A stretch of DNA of 64,000 nucleotides, taken from positions 1 to 64,000 of the forward strand of contig JAUNON010000002.1 in the NCBI GenBank assembly GCA_030537145.1. Direction: 5' to 3'. Each line of letters opens with the position of its first letter. Position 1 is the stretch's first letter. A model generated the notes under the pieces. The model saw only the letters and a list, made by a program, of their open reading frames with translations. It had not been told where the DNA came from and made no database searches. A program made the position numbers and the translations under genes. This stretch comes from Lachnospiraceae bacterium. Lineage in GTDB: Bacteria > Bacillota > Clostridia > Lachnospirales > Lachnospiraceae. This document shows positions 5,518 to 56,660 of the stretch, piece by piece.

Positions 5518-6966
5518 CTATACGATCACATTCAGATACTCTACCGCCGGATCCATCGTTCCCTGTACGGAACATTTCTTTTCCTTCGCAAACAAAATAT
5601 ATTCTATAATTTTTTTTGTAATCCGCTCTCCCGGTGTCAGGATCGGGATTCCCGGCGGATAACACATCACCAGCTCCGCACAGACTGCTCCGGCCGTTTC
5701 CCGGATTGGAAGCTGCTTCTTTTTTGCATAAAAGGCCTTCTGGGGTGTCATCACTTCCTCCGGCTGAATGAAATCACCGCAATAAAGACCATTCGGATCT
5801 TTTTCATAAACATGCCGGATATCCTCCAATGCGCCCACCAGCCGTTCAATGTCCTGCAGCCTATCTCCGATGGAAATGTAGGCCAATATGTTGCCGATAT
5901 CTCCAAATTCAATCTGGATATCGTACTCATCGCGCAGAAGATCATAGACTTCAATTCCCGTCAGGCCGATCCTCTGGGTATAAACAGAAAGCTTCGTCAC
6001 GTCATAATCAAACACGCTGTCCCCGTTGATCAGCTCTTTTCCATAAGCATAGTAGCCGCCGATACCGTTGATCTCACTTCTGGCATATTCCGCCATCTCG
6101 GTCACTTTTTTAAAGGACTCCTTTCCCCGAAGCGCCAGATTTCTTCTGGAAATATCCAGACTAGAAAGCAGCAGATAGGAAGCGCTGGTGGTCTGCGTGA
6201 GATTAATGATCTGCCGGACATATTCCGCATCCGTATCCGGCCCGCACAGCAGAATGGAACTTTGTGTCAGGCTTCCGCCGGATTTGTGCATAGACACCGC
6301 CGCCAGATCCGCGCCTGCGGCAATTCCAGAAACCGGAAGATTTTCTCCGAAATACAGGTGCGTACCATGGGCTTCGTCCACCAGCACCTTCATATTCCGC
6401 TCATGAGCCATCTCTGCAATTTTCCGGACATTGGAGCAGATACCATAATAGGTGGGATTATTGAGAAACACGGCCACCGCATCAGGATTTGCATCCATGA
6501 CCCTGCGCATTTCTTCCACTTCCACCCCCAGCGCAATCCCGATTTCCGGATTCAGCTTGACATTCACATAGACCGGAACCCCGCCGCAGAGCACCAGCGC
6601 ATTGATAACGCTTTTATGTACGTTTCTCGGCAGGATGATCTTGTCTCCGGCTTTACACACAGATAAAATCATACTCTGCACGGAACTTGTCGTGCCGTTT
6701 ACCATCAAAAAAGCGTGAGCTGCCCCAAAGGCTTCCGCTGTGAGTTCCTCCGCCCTGCGTATAACCGAAACCGGATGTCCCAGATTATCCAACGGCTTCA
6801 TGGAATTGACATCCAGTCCCACGCATTTTTCCCCCAGCAGGCTCATCAGTTCCGGATTTCCCCGTCCTCTTTTATGTCCCGGCACGTCAAAGGGCACCAC
6901 GCGCCTTGCCCTGAAACACTCCAACGCTTCATAGATCGGAGCCGACTTCTGTTCTTCCAAGTTCAC
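5518..6966 (-). CDS. speA: Arginine decarboxylase (Orn/Lys/Arg decarboxylase, fold I)
   Basis: This 482-aa protein is a short fold-I PLP decarboxylase of the Bacillus SpeA type. The N-terminal signature is FDVPGHKRGRGNPEL. The central VDEAHGTHLYF holds the PLP-binding Asp, and VSMHKSGGSLTQSS carries the PLP lysine (Lys228). Being first in an operon with aguA and aguB points to arginine (giving agmatine) rather than lysine or ornithine. The start codon is GTG, eight bases after GGAGG. The leader holds a terminator-like hairpin and a possible overlapping promoter (6988-7055). Confidence 0.93.
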   Translation of the reverse strand: MNLEEQKSAPIYEALECFRARRVVPFDVPGHKRGRGNPELMSLLGEKCVGLDVNSMKPLDNLGHPVSVIRRAEELTAEAFGAAHAFLMVNGTTSSVQSMILSVCKAGDKIILPRNVHKSVINALVLCGGVPVYVNVKLNPEIGIALGVEVEEMRRVMDANPDAVAVFLNNPTYYGICSNVRKIAEMAHERNMKVLVDEAHGTHLYFGENLPVSGIAAGADLAAVSMHKSGGSLTQSSILLCGPDTDAEYVRQIINLTQTTSASYLLLSSLDISRRNLALRGKESFKKVTEMAEYARSEINGIGGYYAYGKELINGDSVFDYDVTKLSVYTQRIGLTGIEVYDLLRDEYDIQIEFGDIGNILAYISIGDRLQDIERLVGALEDIRHVYEKDPNGLYCGDFIQPEEVMTPQKAFYAKKKQLPIRETAGAVCAELVMCYPPGIPILTPGERITKKIIEYILFAKEKKCSVQGTMDPAVEYLNVIV

Positions 6967-6987
6967 TTCACATTCCTCCGGATTTCA

Positions 6988-7055
6988 AATATAAAAAATG
7001 CCTTCGGCATCTCAACTCCCCTACCCCTCATTCTTGAGGGGAGAAGGCATTTTTT
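6988..7055 (-). promoter_or_regulatory. Terminator-like hairpin overlapping a possible speA promoter
   Basis: AAAAAATGCCTTC (from about 6993) and GAAGGCATTTTTT (to 7055) form a long symmetrical hairpin enclosing a CCCCTC/GAGGGG arm. On the minus strand it ends in T6 only about 30 bases before the speA start, so it could attenuate the operon. The 3' arm also contains TTGAGA (7010-7015), a 16-base spacer and TATATT (6988-6993), a possible promoter that would start transcription after the hairpin. A similar hairpin ends the cyclophilin gene (36811-36869). Confidence 0.6.
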
Positions 7056-7056
7056 G

Positions 7057-7185
7057 CGCCGGATGCAGATTGCGCAGCAATCAATTACCTTATGCATCCG
7101 TGCGCATCATTTGCCCGCAGGGCTTTTCTCTCATAGGAAAGTCGCATACCTTCACTCTTTAAGGCAAAAATTTGTTCCCTATGAG
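7057..7185 (+). repeat. Repeat family A/D, composite copy
   Basis: The first half (7057-7110) is the A unit: CCGGATGCA, then ATTGC-GCA-GCAAT, then TTACCTTATGCATCCG. GGATGC/GCATCC form an outer inverted repeat around the small ATTGC palindrome. The second half is the D hairpin, with CTCATAGGAA at about 7130 and TTCCCTATGAG to 7185. Other A copies are at 14881-14948 (reverse), 17270-17311, 36856-36876 (truncated) and 56592-56660; a diverged composite is at 38277-38385. No coding potential was seen. It looks like a small non-autonomous or REP-like element. Confidence 0.75.
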
Positions 7186-7186
7186 A

Positions 7187-7220
7187 TAAAAAAAGAGCAG
7201 GTGGACATTCCACTTGCTCT
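7187..7220 (-). terminator. Intrinsic terminator of the adaptor/transporter operon
   Basis: On the minus strand AGAGCA-GTGG and CCAC-TGCTCT form a strong hairpin followed by seven T. It ends transcription coming from the gene at 7519-8514, so speA needs its own promoter between here and 6967. Confidence 0.8.
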
Positions 7221-7518
7221 ACTGATGTCAGAAAATTGCTTTCCATAAATAATTCAGAGTATTATCTGCAAAATATCTGCTACTCTTATTGACCGTTTCA
7301 CAAGATGACTTGCCTTCGCAATGATTATAGATTAATCAACTTATAAAATTTGAGCTTCTAACTCAATCAATAATTTGCTCTGCAAAACATACTCTGTTTT
7401 ACTCACTGAAAACAGTATAGTCCCCAATATACTTTTTGTCAACAAAAGTCTGCTAAATTTCTGAACTTTACAGGCTGAATCGCTTACTTTAGCTGCCCCC
7501 GGCGCTTCGCAAAGATTT
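7221..7518. other. AT-rich intergenic stretch without a recognisable gene
   Basis: About 300 bases between the terminator at 7187-7220 and the end of the gene at 7519. It is richer in A and T than its surroundings. I see no plausible ORF with a ribosome binding site and no structured RNA that I recognise. Confidence 0.5.
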
Positions 7519-8514
7519 TCAAAACGGATTTCTGCCCAACAGAATTCCCGCAAAGGCTGCCGTCAGACTGCAGACTGCGGATTTCTGCAGATTCCATACC
7601 ATGCCAAGCTGCGCTTCCCCCAGCGGCGTGCTGAATATGCGCAGCAGATTTTGCGTCTGATTCTTCCTCCAGCTTTCCCAGAATGAAAAATCTGACCAGC
7701 GGGAAGGAACCATATCCGCAGGAATGCGGAACCGGCTTTTCACAAGCCAGGCAAGAACCGCCAGCACAGCGGCGGCTCCCAGAAAACGTAAGCCGTTTCC
7801 CTTCAAACCGCTCCCGGAACCGGAACCGTTTCTTCTATTAAATAACATTGCAAGAAAAGAAAACGCCAGAATAGCCGGCAGCAAAAGCAGCAGATCCTCC
7901 GTCACACAGACCAGAAGGTGAAGGGTGATGATTTCTCCCTCCAGGCCGTAGCGCATCAGAAACTGTTCTCCATCGCTTTGCGCATTTTTGCTTTCTCCCA
8001 ATTCCAAAGCCACCGCATTCAGCATGGCTGCATCTGTTTCTTTTACCGAGCGTATCATCATTTTCTTTGCGCTTTCAAAGGTCCCCTGCACCGTATAGGC
8101 ATCCTCTCCGCACCACAATATCTGTCCGTCCGCCCGGTCGGTCCCAAACAATTCCTGTGCGGTTTCTGTATCCACCAGGCAGCCGTTTTCCTGCCATGTC
8201 AGGGATGCCGCTTTGGAAGCCACCAGTTCCGCATTTCCTTCCAGCACCGTCAGCGCCACAATCCGGCTGTTTCCCGTTTCCCGGCAGGCCACCTCTTCCT
8301 TCGGTTCCTCCCCCCAAAAGCACAATTTTACCGGAGCTTCCCTTTCCGCCTCCCGGGCGCAGATCTCCTCCGCTTCCTTTTTATCCAGGGCATTTCCCGT
8401 CAAAAACGCATTTATAGTCCCTGATTCTTCCTTTGCCTTTCCGCAATATTGCACCGCCATAAAAAACAAAACGCCTGCTATCGTCAATTCAATGATTTTC
8501 CAGATATATTTCAT
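7519..8514 (-). CDS. MacB/FtsX-like membrane protein without ATPase
   Basis: This 331-aa protein has the layout of a MacB/FtsX permease: one N-terminal membrane helix (about residues 4-24), a ~170-residue outside domain, then about three further helices (about 195-225, 245-262, 305-322). Motifs in the outside part (ECF-free, LTVLEGNAELVASK, VDTETAQELFG) resemble MacB periplasmic core domains, but similarity is weak. The ATG at 8514 has GGGGAGGAG before it; an in-frame ATG at 8541 lacks one. It is last in the operon after the HlyD-type adaptor, its natural partner. No MacB-type ATPase is nearby. Confidence 0.65.
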   Translation of the reverse strand: MKYIWKIIELTIAGVLFFMAVQYCGKAKEESGTINAFLTGNALDKKEAEEICAREAEREAPVKLCFWGEEPKEEVACRETGNSRIVALTVLEGNAELVASKAASLTWQENGCLVDTETAQELFGTDRADGQILWCGEDAYTVQGTFESAKKMMIRSVKETDAAMLNAVALELGESKNAQSDGEQFLMRYGLEGEIITLHLLVCVTEDLLLLLPAILAFSFLAMLFNRRNGSGSGSGLKGNGLRFLGAAAVLAVLAWLVKSRFRIPADMVPSRWSDFSFWESWRKNQTQNLLRIFSTPLGEAQLGMVWNLQKSAVCSLTAAFAGILLGRNPF

Positions 8515-8536
8515 ACTCCTCCCCGAAGCCTTCCGC

Positions 8537-8645
8537 CTCACTTCCCCAGGCCGCCCCGCCCTTTGCGCCTGCCCTTCTTCAGGCTGCTTCGCCCTTTGTG
8601 CCTGCCCGGCTCCTCTTCCCCAGGCCGCTCCGTCTCTAGTGCCTA
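8537..8645. repeat. Degenerate tandem repeat in the adaptor/membrane-protein gap
   Basis: Three imperfect copies of a roughly 35-base GC-rich unit fill the gap. Each has an AGGC(C/T)GC core followed by a CCTTTG(C/T)GCCTGCCC-like half; the third copy has diverged. The composition is clearly more GC-rich than the flanks. The array separates the HlyD stop from the ribosome binding site of the next gene. Confidence 0.6.
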
Positions 8646-10667
8646 CCCCGACACTCTCACCCGGCTTCCGTCGTCTACTGCCTTATCAGAGCTTACGATG
8701 ATTTCCTGCTGGCTGCTGATCGCTCCCTCCGCCAAAGCTGCGTAGGACTCATTTTTTTCCAGGATGGTGACACTGACCTTTCTGGCCTTTTGCTCTGTTC
8801 CCATCACGGAATCCACCTGGTCAACCACCAGTACATAGGGCTGATTTTTTTCATCCAGATGAAGCGCAGACAGCGGGACGCAAACATTGTATATCTCTGA
8901 TTTCCGGACAAAATCCAGCGTGGCCGCCGCTCCGATTTCCATTGTATCTGCGGGAAGCTGCACCTTTACCTGGTAGACACTGCTGCTTCCCTCCTTTGCC
9001 GTTACGGAAGAAACCGCCAGATCCTCGTATTTTTCATTTTTGCCCGGACCGGTCAGCGTCACCGCATCCCCGGTTCCAATGTACTTTTCCTGTTCCTCTG
9101 TGATCTCACCCTGAAAGCTGCTGCCCCTGGAAAGATCCGCCAGCAGAATGGCTGTCGTATCCCCGGTTTTTTCTCCTGTCTGAATGCAGACCTTTGTTAC
9201 CAGCCCATCTGCAGGGGCATAAATTTTTCCCTGGGCCCGTTCCAGCTCCTCCAGCTTTTCCAGTGTAAGCTCCATCTGCTCATAAGTAATCTCATTCATC
9301 CGGTCTGAGCTGTTGGAAGCATTGGGAATTCCTGCTGCCGCTATACTGCGGCCGGAGGTCACTGCCGCCTCGTTAGCCGCCAGACAGGCATCCACATAAG
9401 CATCCTGTGCCGCCTTTACCTGATCAATCAGCGTCTGCTCTGTCTGGGCATTCGAAGCGCTGCTGGCCGAGAGGCGCTCCTGCTGATATTGCGCCAAAGC
9501 CTGCTCCGCCGCTTCCTTCTCCTCTTTTGCCGTCTCCACCTTTTTCCGCGCATTCTCCAGCGGGATCTTATAGCGATCCCGAACTGACTGCTCAATCCGG
9601 TTCAGCTCTTCCTGCGTAGGAGAAGCAGGCGTCTCTCCCTGTTCGCTTTCCTCTGTCTCCAAATCGGCTGTACCGGTACGGTCAATCCCATAAGAATCCG
9701 TATCGTCCGGCATATCCTCCAGCAGGATATCATCCTCTATTATCAGTCCTGGATCATCCTCCTGCAAAGAGGGATCCGAAGGCTCCTCATCGATATACCC
9801 CTGGGTTTCTGCGGGAAAGCTGTCTGCTGCTGTCCCGCTGCCATTCTCCCCCGCACCTTCCGGGGTGTCAAAAAACAGTGCTTCTCCAGGATCATTCTCT
9901 TCTATCAAAAAATTCCCGTCAGCATCATCCTCCAGGGGCAGTACATCCGCAGAGCCGGTGAGCACCGTCTCCGCCGCCGAAAGCCCGGCGCCGCCCGTCC
10001 CATTCATTGCGGCATTCAGCGCTATGTTCACTTCATTTTCAATTTTCCATTGTAGCTGCGTCAGCTCCTGCTGAGCCTGGATGTAAGCTTCTGCCTTTTC
10101 CTGGCAGGCCTCCTCCAGAGCCGTCTCCACAGAGCTGTCCTCATTGGATTGCCCGCTGTTCTCCCGAAATTCTCTCAGTCTTTTTTTCGCCTCTTCCAGA
10201 TTCCGCTTTGCCCTTGCCAGCACAGTGTTCGCCCTGCCGGTGGAGAGAGAATAATTTTCTGCAGCCTGAGCCTGTTCATTGGCCTTCTGCTGCCGGCTGA
10301 CTTCATTTTGACTTTTTGCATCCTTTACCGATAACTGCTGTTTTTCCATTTCCTGCTGTTGATTCAGGATTTTCTCCCTCAGCCAGTTTTGATCCAGGGT
10401 AAACAGCAGATCCCCCCGGGATACCCGCTGGCCCTCCGCAATCTCGACGGATGCCACTCTTAAATCCGCCTCTGTCGTCACGGCAATCTTCTGATTCTGC
10501 ACCACCTTTCCCGCAGCCTTTACCTCATGAGAAATCGCCATGTTCATCGGTTTATTCGTATGTACCACGGCAGTTCCCTCCTGATACGCTGCTCTGGATA
10601 AAATAGTAAAGCAAATCATCAGGGCAAAAAATACCCCTGTAATCTGCAGCAGCCTTCTCTTTTTCAA
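8643..10667 (-). CDS. HlyD-family membrane fusion (adaptor) protein with acidic insertion
   Basis: This roughly 674-aa protein links an inner transporter to export. It has one N-terminal membrane helix (LLQITGVFFALMICFTIL), a lipoyl/barrel half (KVVQNQKIAVTTEADLRVASVEIAEGQRVSRGDLLFTLD), two long coiled-coil arms (Gln/Glu/Ala-rich) and the closing barrel (GKIYAPADGLVTKVCIQTGEKTGDT). Between the arms lies an unusual Asp/Glu-rich stretch of about 130 residues. AAAGGAGG is placed ten bases before the TTG at 10667. An in-frame ATG at 10694 has no such site but is possible. It follows the permease by about 40 bases. Confidence 0.88.
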   Translation of the reverse strand: MKKRRLLQITGVFFALMICFTILSRAAYQEGTAVVHTNKPMNMAISHEVKAAGKVVQNQKIAVTTEADLRVASVEIAEGQRVSRGDLLFTLDQNWLREKILNQQQEMEKQQLSVKDAKSQNEVSRQQKANEQAQAAENYSLSTGRANTVLARAKRNLEEAKKRLREFRENSGQSNEDSSVETALEEACQEKAEAYIQAQQELTQLQWKIENEVNIALNAAMNGTGGAGLSAAETVLTGSADVLPLEDDADGNFLIEENDPGEALFFDTPEGAGENGSGTAADSFPAETQGYIDEEPSDPSLQEDDPGLIIEDDILLEDMPDDTDSYGIDRTGTADLETEESEQGETPASPTQEELNRIEQSVRDRYKIPLENARKKVETAKEEKEAAEQALAQYQQERLSASSASNAQTEQTLIDQVKAAQDAYVDACLAANEAAVTSGRSIAAAGIPNASNSSDRMNEITYEQMELTLEKLEELERAQGKIYAPADGLVTKVCIQTGEKTGDTTAILLADLSRGSSFQGEITEEQEKYIGTGDAVTLTGPGKNEKYEDLAVSSVTAKEGSSSVYQVKVQLPADTMEIGAAATLDFVRKSEIYNVCVPLSALHLDEKNQPYVLVVDQVDSVMGTEQKARKVSVTILEKNESYAALAEGAISSQQEIIVSSDKAVDDGSRVRVSG

Positions 10668-10708
10668 TCTATTCACTCCTCCTTTCCGCTTCATTCAAAC
10701 GGCAAGCG

Positions 10709-11557
10709 CTATTCCTTCAGAGCTGCCGCCGCAATCCCCTGTTCCAGATATTCCTGTCCGCTTAAAAACAGCAGCAGCGCAGGCAGCAGCATCAAAATGG
10801 CGGCAGCAAAGCCGGTGCCTGCCTCCTCCAGCCCAATCTCCGGCAAAAAAAGCGACAGAGGCCACAAGGCTTTCGTCTTGAGAAAGGTCATGGGCTGTTC
10901 GATCATATTCCAGGAATCCAGAAAATTCAGGATGACCGAGGACATGACCCCCGGCGCCCCCAGCGGAAGCCCTATCCGGAGAAAAATCTGAAAATTACCT
11001 GCGCCATCCATACGGGCAGCCTCCAGAATCGCCTCCGGAATCGCTTCGAAAAAACGATACATGATAAATACAGGGAAGGTAGAAAATACCGCTGGCAGAA
11101 TCACCGCTGCATGCGTATCCAGAAGCCCCAGGTCGTTTAATACCAGATATTCCGGAAACATCAGCACCTGAAAGGGCATCAGCATCAGCACAATATAGAG
11201 CATCAAAACCAGCCCCCTTCCCGGAAACTGAAACCTGGCCAGCCCCCAGGCTGCCGGGATGCCTACGATTACCTGTCCCGCCAGTACACACAGCGTAATT
11301 TTCAGGGAATTCCAGAACATGGCGAAAAATTGCGGAGAATCCATCAGGATCCCCACCAGAGACCGCAGGGAGGGCGCCCTTGGAAGCAAGGACCAGCCTG
11401 CCATACCATCGGCATTTCCCAGCACCGGAGACAGGTATTCCTCCAGCTCCCACTGAGAAGTAATCGCCCCTGTTACGGCAAAAAATATGGGAAATACAAC
11501 GATCAAAGCCAAAATCCCCAATACCGTGACCATTACGGCCCCGCCTATCTTTTTCAT
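10709..11557 (-). CDS. ABC sugar-type permease, MalG-like
   Basis: This 282-aa integral membrane protein has six predicted helices. The EAA loop reads EAARMDGAGNFQIFLRIGLPLGAPGV, the docking site for a MalK/MsmX-type ATPase. It resembles the CUT1 carbohydrate permeases. GGGGGAGG precedes the ATG. It pairs with the MalF-like permease 130 bases upstream and the binding protein before that. No ATPase gene is present in this cluster, so a shared ATPase elsewhere would have to power it. The substrate is unknown. Confidence 0.9.
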   Translation of the reverse strand: MKKIGGAVMVTVLGILALIVVFPIFFAVTGAITSQWELEEYLSPVLGNADGMAGWSLLPRAPSLRSLVGILMDSPQFFAMFWNSLKITLCVLAGQVIVGIPAAWGLARFQFPGRGLVLMLYIVLMLMPFQVLMFPEYLVLNDLGLLDTHAAVILPAVFSTFPVFIMYRFFEAIPEAILEAARMDGAGNFQIFLRIGLPLGAPGVMSSVILNFLDSWNMIEQPMTFLKTKALWPLSLFLPEIGLEEAGTGFAAAILMLLPALLLFLSGQEYLEQGIAAAALKE

Positions 11558-11687
11558 TGCCGCCTCCCCCTCAGGCTCTTAGCCCCATTTTTCATAACCC
11601 TATGCAGGTCCCCTTTTCTTAACTGCCGGTGCGCTTTCCCCGCTCCCAAAGCTCTGCCAGGGTCCATTCTGTTTTCCATCCTGCCTC

Positions 11688-12554
11688 CTACGCCTCCGTA
11701 TCCCAGGCCCGCTTCAGCAGCAAAATCATCACAAACACCACCGCCGAAGTCAGCACAGAAGCCGCCGATATTTTATCGAAGGACAATTCCCGGAACCAGT
11801 TGTTATATAAATGCTGTAAAAGGTACATGCTTTGATGGGGATAATCCCCCGCCACCAGCCAGGCCTCCCGAAACACCTTAAAGGAATTCAGAAAAGAAAG
11901 CACCGATATGGTATACAGCGAGGGCATCAGATTAGGAAGCGTGATTTTCGTAAAGCATTTCCACTCACCCGCTCCGTCCACTTTGGCCGCCTCATAAATC
12001 TCTGTGGAAATCCCGGCCAGACCTGCCATCCACAATACCATGTCATACCCCAGATTTTTCCATAAATAACTGATGACCAGCACCCAGAAGGCTGCATCTG
12101 AGGTCATCCAGGCCACTCGGGGCAGTCCCACATAGGCAAGCAGTCCATTGATCAGTCCATTGGAGTGAAACAATACCTTCCATACCAAAACAACAGAGGC
12201 CGCAGGAACCGCCATCGGAAGCAAAAAAGCGCTTTTCAGCAGACTTCGGCCAAACCGCAGCTTCTGCACCAGAACTGCCAAAGCAAGCGACAGCAAAATC
12301 AGCAGCGGCAGGCAGACTGCCGTAAATTTCAGCGTGTTGCCCACCGCCAGACGGAAGGCCGTATTTTCCAGTACACCCTTATAATTTTTTAATCCCACCC
12401 ACTGAGCCGTTACAGCGCTCTGAAAGGAACGCTCCACCACCTTCATCATCGGAAGGAGCGCAAAACAGATCACGCCCAGGAAATCCGGCAGGAGAAAAAT
12501 AACTCCTGCCAGTTCCTTCCTTCTTTTCCTTCTTCTTTTTTTACCGCTCCGCAT
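11688..12554 (-). CDS. ABC sugar-type permease, MalF-like
   Basis: This 288-aa membrane protein starts with a very basic MRSGKKRRRKRRKE segment, then six predicted helices. The EAA loop reads EAAKVDGAGEWKCFTKITLPNLMPSLY. It is a CUT1-type permease and forms the heterodimer with the MalG-like protein downstream. The start follows the binding-protein stop by about 24 bases; the ribosome binding site is weak, so coupling to the upstream gene is likely. Confidence 0.9.
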   Translation of the reverse strand: MRSGKKRRRKRRKELAGVIFLLPDFLGVICFALLPMMKVVERSFQSAVTAQWVGLKNYKGVLENTAFRLAVGNTLKFTAVCLPLLILLSLALAVLVQKLRFGRSLLKSAFLLPMAVPAASVVLVWKVLFHSNGLINGLLAYVGLPRVAWMTSDAAFWVLVISYLWKNLGYDMVLWMAGLAGISTEIYEAAKVDGAGEWKCFTKITLPNLMPSLYTISVLSFLNSFKVFREAWLVAGDYPHQSMYLLQHLYNNWFRELSFDKISAASVLTSAVVFVMILLLKRAWDTEA

Positions 12555-12578
12555 TTTCCATTCGTCTTTTTTCCAAAT

Positions 12579-14855
12579 TTATTCGGCCAGATACAGATTC
12601 ACGGTCTGCATAATCGAATTGACCGTCTCATCCACACTAAGCTCTCCATCCACGCACCGGTATACCTGTTCCAGCACCGCCTGCATAATGATCCGGTCGC
12701 TGTCCGCACGGACGTTCAGGCTCTGCACCATTGCATCCAGATCATTCAGCTCCTCCTCCGTCGGCCAGTAGTAAAATAGCTCGATGCTTTCACCCGTCTG
12801 GTTGTTTTCTGCATATGCGCTCATCTCTCCGTCCTCAAAAGCCGGAATATACAGCGTATCATGAAGGGCCTGCGCATTCACCGGGAAGCCGCTGTTCTGA
12901 TCAATCATCTGCCCCTCCTTCGCCAGCATATAATTCACAAAATCCACTGCCCTCCCGGTTTCCCTGGCCGTATTCAGGATACCTAAAATCATATGGGGTA
13001 CAAACACACCGGACTGCTGGCCATTCAGCAAAGCTATGCTGCAGTCACCTGTAACCTTATTTACCGAAGAAACACCCGAATACGCTCTGCCGCCGGACAG
13101 CTCGCCCACATAAGCCTGACATTTCCCGCCGGCCAAAGACAAATCCCCCATGCTTATATTATTCGAACCCTGCAAAGCCGCTTCCCACCCAACCAGGTAG
13201 TTCAATTCTTCCAGGCTTTCTGAGGAAGCAGATTCCATCCACGTATCATGAAATTCCTTCATATTGCGCACATATTCCGCCAGCTTTTCCTGATCAAAGG
13301 TTCCATCTTCCTTCCGCCAGCTTCCGGCGCACACCGGATATAAGAGGGCCGCCATAGCAGAGCCATTCCAGGAGTCCAGAACGTCCTGCTGCCCTGCCAG
13401 CTTTATCAGATCCTCCATGCCCTGCACGGAATCGATCCATTCTTTTTTCCCTACAATAACCGGAATGGAAAAGCATGCCGGGACAGCGAAGGTTCCTCCG
13501 TCCTGCCTATAGGTATATGCCACGTTCTCCAGAAGTCCGTCTGCCTCTCCCACGCCCTGCAAAATATCGGTCAGATCTATCAAAAGCCCTTTCTCCACAT
13601 AGGTTTCCACCGACATACCGTCCAAAAGCAAAATATCCGGCCCGCTGCCCGCCAAAATATCCGTGTTCAGTGTGCGCAGCGCATCCTCTGCCGTCACTCC
13701 CTCTCCGCCGCTCATTCCAATCTGATAATTCACATAGGTGTCCGGGTATTTCTTCTGAAACAGAGAAATGGCCTGGCGCACACCGTCATTTTCTTCCAGG
13801 GAATAGATAGTAAGCTCCCGTTCCGGAACACTGGAAATATCCGGATCATACTCATATTTCCGGATAAAGGGAGCTGCGTCTACACTGGATATCCCCAAAA
13901 CATAGAAGGTCTGATCCTGTACCGCTATTCCCTGCCATACATTCGTTGGATCCGACAAAGAATTCAGGCTGCCGTCCACCACCTGTTCCACCGTACTTCC
14001 ACCCGGCATATGGGTAAAGATCCCCTTCTTATTACAATAATACAGCCGCCCCTCTGCATCCGAACCGAAAACCACCGGATAACCGCCGCCTATGGTTTGT
14101 TCATAGGAGATTCCGTCCGCAAAGAAGGCCTCCTCCAGCGCCTCATCTCTGCCCAGCGGCTCTCTGCTTTCCAAATCATAAGGAAGCAGCTCCGAATTTT
14201 CCGTAAGAACCAGGATCTCATTCCCGCAGGGAGCCACCAGTTCTCCATTGCTGCAAAGCTCTGCTGCTATTTCTCCTGTATTCCGGTCCATCAAAACCGC
14301 AGAGCCCCCATAGGAAACTCCTGTCAGCGTCCCATTCTGGTGAAAGCTTAAAAACGCAGGCATATCCGCAGACATATTTCCCAAATCTGTCGTCGTCACA
14401 TTTCCCTGCTCATCGAAGGCAGCAAAGATAAATCGATAATCGTTAATCTCTGATGCTTCTGCCGCATCCATAATGATTCCGGCACCCCCGCCGTCTGCGG
14501 CCAGGGCTGCAGCCGAAAAATAGAGATCTGCATATTCCTCCGGGAATTCAGCCGCCAATTCCCAGGTAGCTCCTCCATCACTGCTGTCCCATAGCCCGGC
14601 TACCTTTTCCTCATAATTCTGTCCCAGAATACGAAGCTTTCCATCCACCGTGACGTTCATCGCCGCAGGATATACATTCTCCGGAAGCTCCACCTCTGTT
14701 TCCAGATAACGCCCCATGGCAGAACCGTTCAGCTCCTGCGGTTCCTCCGCCCATGCTGCTGCGGAAAGGTTTCCCAGCAGCATGCAAACCGCCATGCCTC
14801 CGGTCAAAGCTTTTTTCCAATCTCGTTTCCAATCCTTCTTACATTTTTCCTTCAT
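12579..14855 (-). CDS. Solute-binding protein with N-terminal BNR/beta-propeller-like region
   Basis: This 758-aa secreted protein is about twice the usual length of a sugar-binding protein. After a signal peptide (ALTGGMAVCMLLG, cleavage near AWAEE; no lipobox cysteine) come about 330 residues with a BNR-type Asp-box (SSDGGATWE) and repeated short beta-strand patterns. From about residue 365 the extracellular solute-binding domain follows (LTIYSLEENDGVRQAISLFQ, then GPDILLLDGMSVETYVEKGLLIDL). The start is the ATG with AGGAGG before it; an upstream in-frame ATG at 14969 would translate repeat A. The mature protein apparently lacks a lipid anchor. Confidence 0.88.
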   Translation of the reverse strand: MKEKCKKDWKRDWKKALTGGMAVCMLLGNLSAAAWAEEPQELNGSAMGRYLETEVELPENVYPAAMNVTVDGKLRILGQNYEEKVAGLWDSSDGGATWELAAEFPEEYADLYFSAAALAADGGGAGIIMDAAEASEINDYRFIFAAFDEQGNVTTTDLGNMSADMPAFLSFHQNGTLTGVSYGGSAVLMDRNTGEIAAELCSNGELVAPCGNEILVLTENSELLPYDLESREPLGRDEALEEAFFADGISYEQTIGGGYPVVFGSDAEGRLYYCNKKGIFTHMPGGSTVEQVVDGSLNSLSDPTNVWQGIAVQDQTFYVLGISSVDAAPFIRKYEYDPDISSVPERELTIYSLEENDGVRQAISLFQKKYPDTYVNYQIGMSGGEGVTAEDALRTLNTDILAGSGPDILLLDGMSVETYVEKGLLIDLTDILQGVGEADGLLENVAYTYRQDGGTFAVPACFSIPVIVGKKEWIDSVQGMEDLIKLAGQQDVLDSWNGSAMAALLYPVCAGSWRKEDGTFDQEKLAEYVRNMKEFHDTWMESASSESLEELNYLVGWEAALQGSNNISMGDLSLAGGKCQAYVGELSGGRAYSGVSSVNKVTGDCSIALLNGQQSGVFVPHMILGILNTARETGRAVDFVNYMLAKEGQMIDQNSGFPVNAQALHDTLYIPAFEDGEMSAYAENNQTGESIELFYYWPTEEELNDLDAMVQSLNVRADSDRIIMQAVLEQVYRCVDGELSVDETVNSIMQTVNLYLAE

Positions 14856-14880: not shown

Positions 14881-14948
14881 AGTACTTTGTGCGGTGATGC
14901 GCACGGATGCATAAGGGAATTGATTGCTGCGCAATCTGCATCCGGCAT
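14881..14948 (-). repeat. Repeat family A copy (reverse orientation)
   Basis: On the minus strand this reads CCGGATGCA, ATTGCGCAGCAAT, then CTTATGCATCCGTGCGCATC and CACCGCACAAAGT, the full A unit. It occupies the 5' flank of the binding-protein gene, about 26 bases before its ATG, and artificially lengthens that reading frame. Confidence 0.75.
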
Positions 14949-15204
14949 CTCTTTGTTACAGCATAGCATTCTTTTCTCTAAAAAAGCTCTAAATTGTCTC
15001 TAATTCATCTTTATCCTTTTACAAACCCAGGGCCAAAAGCCATCCCCACTTTTATAGATTATTTAGAGATTTCTATGATACAATAAAAACAAATCTTTTA
15101 CCGGTTTGGCGGAGAGCAGAATGCCTCTCTCCAAAAGAACATTTTCCCGAAATGCTATGCAGCTTTTATATTTTATATTATGGAAAACAGCGAGGTTTTT
15201 TGAA
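14949..15204. promoter_or_regulatory. Divergent promoter region of ABC cluster and two-component system
   Basis: This AT-rich stretch separates the leftward ABC cluster from the rightward response regulator. It contains TTTAGAGA...GATACAAT at about 15060-15085, a fair sigma-A-like signal for the regulator gene. No small gene is evident. Confidence 0.45.
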
Positions 15205-15903
15205 ATGCGGATACTACTGATTGAAGATGACCGGTCCCTTTGCCGGTCGCTGAGACTTTCCCTGGAACAGCAGGGATTTCAGGTAACGGTATGCAATGAT
15301 GGGGAGGAGGGCCTTTTCTACCTGATGGAAAATGCACACGATCTGGTTCTGCTTGACCGGATGCTTCCGGAAATGGATGGAATGGAGGTTCTTCGTCTGG
15401 CACGGGAGAAGGGCTGTACGGTTCCGATTATTTTTCTGACTGCCCTTGGCAGCCTGGATGACCGGGTACAGGGTCTGGATTGCGGAGCGGATGATTATAT
15501 CATAAAGCCTTTCGCCTTCCAGGAGCTGATGGCGCGGATCCGCTGCGTATGCCGGCGGCCCGGGCAGCTCAAGTCCTCAGAAACGCTCTCCTGGGGTGAC
15601 ATTGCTTATGAACCGGAAGAATATCTGCTGACCCGGGGAACAATGAGCTGTACCCTTTCCCGCCGGGAGGGAGAGCTGATGGCGCTGTTTTTGCAAAATC
15701 CCGGGCAGACGCTTCTGCGTACCACCATCCTGACACGGGTATGGGGGCCGGATGCCGAGGTGGAAAGCGGAAACCTGGATAATTACATTCATTTTCTGCG
15801 GCGCAGACTGCGCTCTCTGCAAAGCAGACTGGAGCTAAAAACTGCCAGAGGGATCGGATACCGTCTGACTGACCCGGATGCGGCTTCGCATATCGTTTCC
15901 TAA
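15205..15903 (+). CDS. OmpR/PhoB-type response regulator
   Basis: This 232-aa protein has a receiver domain (MRILLIEDDRSLCRSL; phospho-acceptor Asp in LLDRMLPEMDG; KPFAF lysine) and a C-terminal winged-helix DNA-binding domain (LSRREGELMALFLQNPGQTLLRTTIL...NYIHFLRRRL). The ATG at 15205, giving the standard N-terminus and preceded by GAGG, is preferred over the in-frame ATG at 15106. It is followed by its sensor kinase and is divergent from the ABC/HlyD cluster, which it probably controls. Confidence 0.93.
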   Translation: MRILLIEDDRSLCRSLRLSLEQQGFQVTVCNDGEEGLFYLMENAHDLVLLDRMLPEMDGMEVLRLAREKGCTVPIIFLTALGSLDDRVQGLDCGADDYIIKPFAFQELMARIRCVCRRPGQLKSSETLSWGDIAYEPEEYLLTRGTMSCTLSRREGELMALFLQNPGQTLLRTTILTRVWGPDAEVESGNLDNYIHFLRRRLRSLQSRLELKTARGIGYRLTDPDAASHIVS

Positions 15904-15975
15904 ATACCGGACGATATGCAGAAAAATACCTGCCGCATCCCGCAAATCGCCTGTTTTTACGCAAAGGAGGATTTT

Positions 15976-17265
15976 ATGTTTCAGCACTTCCAGCTTCGCC
16001 TGACCGCCCTGTGTACCCTGGTTACGGGCGTGATTCTGGTCATTTTATCCACTATCTGTCTGTACATTTCCGAAATGGGGATCCGAAACCAGGAAGGCAT
16101 TTCCTTCCAGACCAATTTAAACAACTTTTATCAGAATATCCAGATGCAGACCTCTTTGTCTCACCAGTGGCTCAGGCAAACCCAGCACAACTATCAGTTT
16201 CTGGTGCGGATTACAGACAACGGTTCTCCCCTCTTCTTTCAAAGCTTTTCCGCTGATGAGACCGCAGAAGCACTGCTGGATACTGCGGAAGCGCTCGCCT
16301 GCTCCCAGCACGGAATCGATGTAAAAGCCGTCTCGTCCAACCGGACATTGATGAAGCATGCCGAATACTCCATGCAGGCCGACGGGCAGAATTACTATGC
16401 TTCTGCGGCTCAGATTCCTGTTTCCGGAGGCGTGCTGGGCGTCATGATTCTTCATCCGCTTACCGTCATGTACAGCCGCATTTTAAAACAGCGTTTCATC
16501 TTTGCCCTGGCGGATCTGGCTGCCATGATACTGTTTTGTATTTTTTTCTGGTTTTTCATCGCCCGAATTATGCGGTCGCTGCAGGAAAACCGGAAAAAGC
16601 AGATGCAATTCGTTGCCTCTGCTTCCCATGAGCTGCGTTCACCGCTCACTGTGATCCTAAGCAATGTGGATGCAGTGAGACAAAAAAGCATGGCCGCAGA
16701 CGACCAGTTTCTGGATACGATTGAAACAGAAGGAAAAAGGATGTCCACACTGATCCATGATATGCTGCAGCTAGCCAATGCAGACAACCACAGTTGGAGT
16801 ATGCATCCCGCCAGTACAGAGCTGGATACTTTGATCCTGCAGACCTTCGAAACCTTTGAAGCTCTGGCCCGGCGCAAAGAGCTGCATTGGAAAATTTCCA
16901 TTCCCGATGAAGCCATTCCCCGCTGCCGCTGTGATGCGGAGCGGATTCAGCAGCTTCTGACGATCCTGATCGACAATGCCTTCAGCTACACTCCGGAAGG
17001 AGGGACCGTCCTCCTGTCTCTCAAAGCCTCCGGCTCTGCCGCCCGGATCACGGTTTCAGACAATGGCCCGGGAATCCCGGATGACCAAAAAAAGGCTGTT
17101 TTTCAGCGTTTCTACTGCATCGATCATTCCCGCAGTCAAAAAGGCCATTTCGGACTTGGCCTTTGCATCGCCCAGGAGATTGCAAAGCTGCACAAGGGTC
17201 AGCTTCTTCTTGCAGATACACCGGGCGGCGGGGCTTCCTTTACGCTGGTACTGCCTTTCGAATAA
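15976..17265 (+). CDS. Sensor histidine kinase
   Basis: This 429-aa protein has an N-terminal membrane helix, an outside sensor domain of about 150 residues, and a second helix (ALADLAAMILFCIFFWFFIA). The dimerisation domain carries the phospho-His (ASASHELRSPLTVILSNVD). The ATPase domain has the N box (DNAFSYTPEGG), G1 box (DNGPGIPDD) and G2 box (GHFGLGLCIA). AAAGGAGGA precedes the chosen ATG; the longer frame from 15916 has none. It pairs with the regulator 72 bases upstream. The ligand is unknown. Confidence 0.93.
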   Translation: MFQHFQLRLTALCTLVTGVILVILSTICLYISEMGIRNQEGISFQTNLNNFYQNIQMQTSLSHQWLRQTQHNYQFLVRITDNGSPLFFQSFSADETAEALLDTAEALACSQHGIDVKAVSSNRTLMKHAEYSMQADGQNYYASAAQIPVSGGVLGVMILHPLTVMYSRILKQRFIFALADLAAMILFCIFFWFFIARIMRSLQENRKKQMQFVASASHELRSPLTVILSNVDAVRQKSMAADDQFLDTIETEGKRMSTLIHDMLQLANADNHSWSMHPASTELDTLILQTFETFEALARRKELHWKISIPDEAIPRCRCDAERIQQLLTILIDNAFSYTPEGGTVLLSLKASGSAARITVSDNGPGIPDDQKKAVFQRFYCIDHSRSQKGHFGLGLCIAQEIAKLHKGQLLLADTPGGGASFTLVLPFE

Positions 17266-56591: not shown

Positions 56592-56660
56592 GCACCGGAT
56601 GCAGATTGCGCAGCAATAAATTACCTTATGTATCCGTGCGCATCACCGCACGAAGGGCTT
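56592..56660 (+). repeat. Repeat family A, copy near purA
   Basis: CACCGGATGCAGATTGCGCA, GCAATAAATTACC and TTATGTATCCGTGCGCATC, then ACCGCACGAAGGGC form the whole A unit, with one change in each arm relative to 7057. It ends in T6 within a few bases of the purA stop. Confidence 0.72.

Follow-up and report, generated by a model that had tools for sequence, protein, structure and literature searches.

The closest described counterparts of the system considered here are sugar importers of the CUT1 family that depend on a multitask ATPase, such as those served by MsmX in Bacillus subtilis and MsmK in Streptococcus pneumoniae (PMC7658222). Both MsmX and MsmK are orphans that have been demonstrated to power several importers, and the arrangement is well described for sugar importers of the Bacillota (PMC7658222). 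Such importers combine a CUT1-fold solute-binding protein (SBP) with MalF- and MalG-type permeases carrying EAA loops; no ATPase gene lies in the operon, and an orphan ATPase of the UgpC/MalK class is found elsewhere in the genome. We analysed a 64,000-nucleotide stretch of DNA from a Lachnospiraceae bacterium (contig JAUNON010000002.1 of assembly GCA_030537145.1, hereafter the window), in which a five-gene operon shares these features and adds to them an adaptor of HlyD type, a protein of MacB fold and, on the SBP, a second domain that is propeller-like. To our knowledge, these additions are found in no described CUT1 importer.

The adaptor and the MacB-fold protein recall instead the Gram-positive MacAB-type pumps YknXYZ (PMC4887032) and Spr0693-0694-0695 (PMC5768738), where an HlyD/MacA-type adaptor is likewise encoded beside a membrane protein whose extracellular part has the MacB fold. 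The operon thus has two hallmarks of the MacAB/YknXYZ (type VII) pumps. However, it lacks both the FtsX C-terminal domain with its coupling helix and a cognate MacB-type ATPase, and its MacB-like protein has an enlarged outer loop, with the motif P..WSDF.FW, and is encoded beside MalF and MalG. Because neither coupling region nor ATPase is there, identity as a MacAB-type exporter was rejected. BceAB-type modules linked to two-component systems (TCSs) share with the present system a membrane protein of the FtsX/MacB superfamily encoded with a TCS, but here the rest is a type I importer and an HlyD adaptor. BceB is also larger than the present MacB-like protein and has its own ATPase, BceA.

All features tested (a CUT1-fold SBP, two BPD_transp_1 permeases with an EAA loop, and a UgpC/MalK-class ATPase in the genome, present there as an orphan) point to a type I importer, which would work like the ATPase-borrowing CUT1 importers. 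Our interpretation, to which we give about an even chance of being right, is that the locus encodes a TCS-regulated ATP-binding cassette (ABC) importer of CUT1 type in which a MacA-type adaptor and a MacB-fold protein serve as non-motor extracytoplasmic parts. A preliminary description of the window had stated that no system of this composition was known. None was found in the literature searched, which covered few subscription journals, and the gene combination appears to be undescribed.

The operon runs on the minus strand from 14855 down to 7519, in the order SBP, MalF, MalG, HlyD, MacB-like, and faces a TCS. The five genes, their strand and their order agreed with the single leftward operon of the preliminary description. 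Its features are as follows.

12579 to 14855, minus strand: two-domain SBP, 758 residues, with a signal peptide, an N-terminal all-beta domain and a C-terminal CUT1-type sugar-binding fold
13821 to 14717, minus strand: N-terminal all-beta domain of the SBP (about residues 47-345), with the BNR-type motif SSDGGATW; a probable beta-propeller
11688 to 12554, minus strand: MalF-like permease with intact EAA loop (EIYEAAKVDGAGEWKCFTKITLP)
10709 to 11557, minus strand: MalG-like permease with intact EAA loop (EAILEAARMDGAGNFQIFLRIGLP), clustering with all other MalGs of the system
8643 to 10694, minus strand: HlyD/MacA-type adaptor, 683 residues, with a single N-terminal transmembrane (TM) helix, lipoyl halves, a long hairpin with an acidic insert, and a barrel
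7519 to 8541, minus strand: MacB/YknZ-fold membrane protein, 340 residues, lacking the FtsX coupling-helix region, with an enlarged TM3-TM4 outer loop carrying the conserved P..WSDF.FW

Intergenic gaps from the SBP gene to the MacB-like gene are 24, 130, 14 and 101 bp. Pfam assigned BPD_transp_1 to both permeases, SBP_bac_1 to the C-terminal part of the SBP and HlyD_3 to the adaptor. The SBP start at 14855, as proposed earlier, was supported by an AGGAGG just upstream; the mechanically called open reading frame (ORF), which extends to 14969, is 38 codons too long, since its start sits in an intergenic repeat that recurs across the genome in many copies. No ABC ATPase gene was present in the operon or adjoining it, again as first described. 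A 43-bp, hairpin-capable intergenic repeat resembling repetitive extragenic palindromes occurs in the window at 7061-7103 (minus), 14901-14943 (plus) and 56597-56639 (minus). The first two copies bracket the operon in inverted orientation, the third stands apart from it in the window, and about 45 genomic occurrences are suggested by translated similarity.

With the MacB-like protein as query, matches were obtained in 35 of 299 genomes of the family, and their neighbourhoods (up to 20 kb) showed the same gene order nearly everywhere. A second sample was blind to the other genes: named genomes were scanned with a MalG alignment and the 80 best loci kept. In these, HlyD adjoined MalG wherever enough downstream sequence existed, and a recognisable MacB-like gene was likewise present in all but one (L152). 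Altogether, 117 distinct MalG loci were collected, and profiles identified both HlyD and the MacB-like gene in 106. The other 11 comprised seven contig-edge cases, two divergent forms (L227 and L228), a locus with one 452-residue ORF carrying the WSDF motif (L164), and L152, in which HlyD is followed by a 382-residue ORF to which no family was assigned. Carriers include Blautia, Murimonas, Lactonifactor, Coprococcus catus and Hespellia among the Lachnospiraceae, Angelakisella and Neglectibacter among the Oscillospiraceae, and Clostridium celatum, C. cuniculi and C. saudiense. Blautia caecimuris, Murimonas intestini and Lactonifactor longoviformis are carriers that can be cultured.

In a MalG tree, the MalGs of the system formed one clade against five other MalGs (support 100/98), an outgroup that is small and long-branched, and L227 and L228 made up the deepest branch. 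A phylum-wide profile search of 398 genomes returned mostly generic MacB proteins, matched through the MacB_PCD stretch; among the matches followed up, the only further systems were a full one in genome G673 and divergent ones in G500 and G641. By these comparisons, the five genes are one conserved unit, inherited together. The joint encoding of import- and export-type modules, noted at the outset, is thus a property of the unit. Homologues occurring mostly apart would have told against the preliminary description, and this is clearly not the case. An operon remnant at L037 (contig C11 of G152, 6786-11085) consists of MalG, HlyD and MacB-like genes only, without SBP, MalF or TCS, and has a pyruvate-formate-lyase-like gene upstream.

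Which ATPase could drive the system was considered from both sides, permeases and genomes. Both MalF and MalG retain their ATPase-binding EAA loops. An ATPase gene of 368-374 residues lies inside the operon in four relatives, two from Lachnospiraceae (L067, L068) and two distant (L227, L228), and in L140 a UgpC-class ATPase gene follows the kinase gene. With the UgpC model, whose cut-off is 432 bits, the in-operon ATPases of L067 and L068 scored 432 and 447. With these four in-operon cases and the one in L140, linked UgpC-class ATPases were found in 5 of the 117 loci, so that no ATPase lies consistently one gene away in relatives. In the two ATPase-bearing Lachnospiraceae variants, a second small lipoprotein is encoded between SBP and HlyD (9187-9822 in L067, 2484-2999 in L068). 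Loss of a nearby ATPase gene in assembly was rejected as an explanation for the window: its operon lies well inside the contig, and 112 of the 117 loci are likewise without a linked UgpC-class ATPase.

UgpC-class matches occurred in all 39 system-bearing genomes, in 37 of them above the cut-off; the two below it, the window's own genome (G000) and G001, are both incomplete assemblies. In each of ten genomes inspected, the best UgpC-class copy was an orphan of about 370 residues without MalF or MalG neighbours. The orphan UgpC/MsmX-type ATPase of the window's genome is split between the ends of two contigs, C9 (71655-72114) and C74 (12373-12834). The fragments are identical to an intact gene from the same genus at 151 of 157 (96%) and 135 of 153 (88%) residues, and the C9 fragment has the same upstream neighbours as that gene. 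On contigs C33 and C24 the genome also encodes ATPases of PotA and Fbp type, which were set aside as candidates because they are encoded beside their own permeases.

Together, EAA loops and an orphan UgpC-class ATPase, as in the MsmX and MsmK systems, make one importer-class ATPase the economical reading. The system probably uses a single importer-type motor, encoded elsewhere and shared with other transporters, and we infer that the orphan ATPase serves this operon. The preliminary description had counted two missing ATPases, one for each module. That count was not supported: the EAA loops and the orphan would account for one, and the MacB-like protein is devoid of a region to bind the other.

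On its own, the window's MacB-like protein gave no Pfam match. Its structure, predicted with 37 relatives in the alignment, had a mean predicted local distance difference test score (pLDDT) of 90.6, and the best solved matches of the model were MacB, the Streptococcus MacB-like protein Spr0695, the extracellular domain of YknZ (Z 13.0, root-mean-square deviation 3.0, 158 residues) and LolE. The stretch from TM1 to TM2 has the fold of the MacB extracellular domain according to both the structure and Pfam, where 30 of 38 family members matched MacB_PCD. By contrast with these matches to MacB_PCD, none of the 38 matched FtsX (PF02687) in Pfam. In MacB, a major coupling helix between TM2 and TM3 transmits movements of the nucleotide-binding domains to the membrane domain (PMC5985334), and in genuine MacBs encoded beside the operon in Blautia this region reads SVTERTSEIGLKKAIGARKK. 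The coupling motif, EIG..KAIG, was found in none of 116 MacB-like proteins of the system. The genuine Blautia MacBs, used as a positive control, carry it, and one scores 71.8 bits for PF02687; the motif is therefore detectable where it exists.

The TM2-TM3 loop of the window's model has only about eight residues, mostly Gly and Ser, and some members of the family have no TM2 and TM3, the extracellular domain running directly into the WSDF motif. Short MacB-like proteins of about 280-330 residues, for which only two TM helices were predicted rather than four, were seen in L117, L121, L123, L134, L143, L158 and L061, in otherwise complete operons. The strongest conservation in the family falls in the outer loop after TM3, at P..WSDF.FW, and a MacB-type ATPase is encoded inside the operon in none of the 117 loci. 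Given these features, the protein appears to be uncoupled from any MacB-type motor. Lacking the region that binds a MacB-type ATPase, it probably needs none.

A structure search with the predicted model matched SBP residues 343-758 to sugar-binding proteins (CbpC, 7x0o, Z 27.2). In the model, some 24 strands and a BNR-like motif fall in residues 47-352, an all-beta N-terminal domain that is probably a propeller. The BNR/propeller fusion proposed earlier is therefore plausible on the strength of the model, though only 2 of 36 SBP family members touch the Pfam BNR family; the SBPs of the distant L227 and L228 have no extra N-terminal domain. A lipobox was present in at least 80 of 104 family SBPs, a lower bound because the regular expression missed clear lipoboxes in L072, L073, L113, L135 and L162. 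In the window's lineage, and in some Blautia SBPs, an ordinary signal peptide without the lipobox Cys is found. The lack of a lipid anchor, reported for the window, is correct for its SBP and does not extend to most relatives; on this comparison, the lost anchor is a trait of the window's own lineage. For the adaptor, the family profile gave RND and MacA adaptors as the best solved relatives.

The TCS consists of a response regulator (RR) and a sensor histidine kinase (HK), oriented away from the operon. The genes and the predicted regulatory sites between them and the operon are as follows.

14975 to 15003, plus strand: three CTCTAA half-sites with an 11-bp period (14976, 14987, 14998); probable RR box of the operon promoter (predicted)
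15061 to 15083, plus strand: inverted half-site TTTAGAGA beside a promoter-like TATGAT ahead of the regulator gene; probable autoregulation (predicted)
15205 to 15903, plus strand: OmpR/PhoB-type RR; the ORF runs from 15106, and with the probable start ATGCGG at 15205 a 33-codon overrun was trimmed
15916 to 17265, plus strand: HK with two TM helices and an extracellular domain matching no known family

Across 58 divergent regulator-operon regions, 11-bp-period direct repeats numbered 360, against 34 expected from shuffles. The commonest repeat unit was TCTCTAA, and its double site occurred in 27 of the 58 regions, against 0.06 expected. In the window's 3.1-Mb assembly, exact CTCTAA-N5-CTCTAA had only two matches, which overlap within 14976-15003. 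These predicted boxes are of the kind bound by OmpR-type regulators. In G136 and G195 the TCS lies at the far end of the operon and exact boxes stand before the regulator and before the SBP gene, 9 kb apart; these two genomes give the strongest evidence that both units are under TCS control. The RR would activate the operon as well as its own genes. In G142 and G133 the sites are imperfect and gave no match to the exact box, and the single match of G152 and two of the three of G250 fell elsewhere in the genome. In most of the loci for which upstream sequence is available, the TCS lies next to the operon, and operons with no nearby TCS exist (e.g. L055, L139, L145).

If our interpretation is right, the TCS would induce the regulator genes and the operon, the SBP would capture a ligand, probably saccharide-like, and then dock on MalF-MalG, and the shared ATPase would drive uptake. 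MalF-MalG could be surrounded or flanked by an extracytoplasmic collar in which the MacB-like protein acts as the seat and HlyD as the sleeve. Such a collar may hold the SBP, which is not lipid-anchored in the window's lineage, or guide substrate through the wall zone, with the enlarged P..WSDF.FW loop as the likely partner contact. A bolder form of the proposal is offered tentatively: the parts may make up one transenvelope machine of a new kind. Its one motor, that of the importer, would also drive a MacA tube and a motorless MacB-fold seat, or would have them docked onto it, and components made for export would in this way be put to use in import (or in ligand delivery and sensing) across the Gram-positive wall zone. 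The exchange assembly suggested in the preliminary description found no specific evidence in its favour.

Several observations weigh against a motor-borrowing importer with an attached collar. Co-inheritance of genes is no proof of one physical complex, and the adaptor could serve the MacB-like protein by itself. The presence of a UgpC-class ATPase is necessary but weak support, because such ATPases are common in these genomes, and the window genome's own copy is interrupted where the assembly lacks about 62 residues. The tests for loss of the coupling helix were sequence-based, and a helix that has diverged might yet make contact with an ATPase; the MacB-like forms of the distant L227 and L228 have a longer TM2-TM3 loop.

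The strongest rival is a sensing role, in which SBP, permeases, adaptor and MacB-like protein act as a co-sensor rather than a bulk transporter, detecting ligand and informing the kinase as BceAB does for BceS. The common adjacency of the TCS and a box dedicated to the operon fit this idea, as do the loci with two such SBPs. In L261 (contig C4 of G179, 6754-11398), a second family SBP stands with a divergent RR-HK pair and box of the same kind, without the system's MalF, MalG, HlyD and MacB-like genes; next to it come a further large membrane protein and a permease pair of a different kind. However, a nutrient importer equipped with a dedicated TCS would present the same picture, and retained EAA loops, in-operon ATPases in some relatives and operons without a nearby TCS all speak against the idea, so that we regard a pure co-sensor as unlikely. 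It is more doubtful still that the operon houses two pumps that each depend on an ATPase from elsewhere, one an importer of CUT1 type and the other an independent exporter of MacAB type. The adaptor and the MacB fold are of exporter type, and several Blautia loci do have a genuine MacAB set with its ATPase beside the operon. Against this stand the missing FtsX domain and coupling motif, the disappearance of TM2-TM3 in some members and the absence of an in-operon MacB-type ATPase throughout, when the genuine Blautia MacB keeps its motif. The MacAB sets beside the hybrid operon are those of the Blautia-type loci L107, L109, L120, L127 and L154 (L111 in part), and their MacB retains the coupling motif where it was read (not in L154).

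Mechanotransmission is the mode of action of MacB-fold proteins (PMC5985334), and it might here run in reverse: an ATP-driven MalF-MalG cycle would move the MacB-like protein and HlyD for work outside the membrane, such as release, pumping or wall-zone remodelling. The only remaining motor contact is indeed on MalF-MalG, and the parts could readily meet through the conserved outer loop. Yet the scheme is without known precedent, and we consider it very improbable. In favour of a chance neighbourhood of unrelated transport genes, each part singly comes from a common family, but gene order is kept across several families of Clostridia and regulation is shared. Chance was rejected on the conserved order, and we assign it a negligible likelihood.

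The role of HlyD adaptors in bacteria that have no outer membrane is a question raised previously (PMC5985334), and a puzzling one because the classical job of these proteins is to bridge two membranes. Here, in many gut Clostridia, such an adaptor goes together with the core of an importer and with a seemingly motorless MacB-fold partner. By gene names alone, such operons would be read as an efflux pump and an incomplete sugar transporter, a lesson for annotation. If the products form one complex, the MacA-MacB extracytoplasmic apparatus would be reusable without its ATPase, and the operon would offer a direct system for testing the function of adaptors in Gram-positive envelopes.

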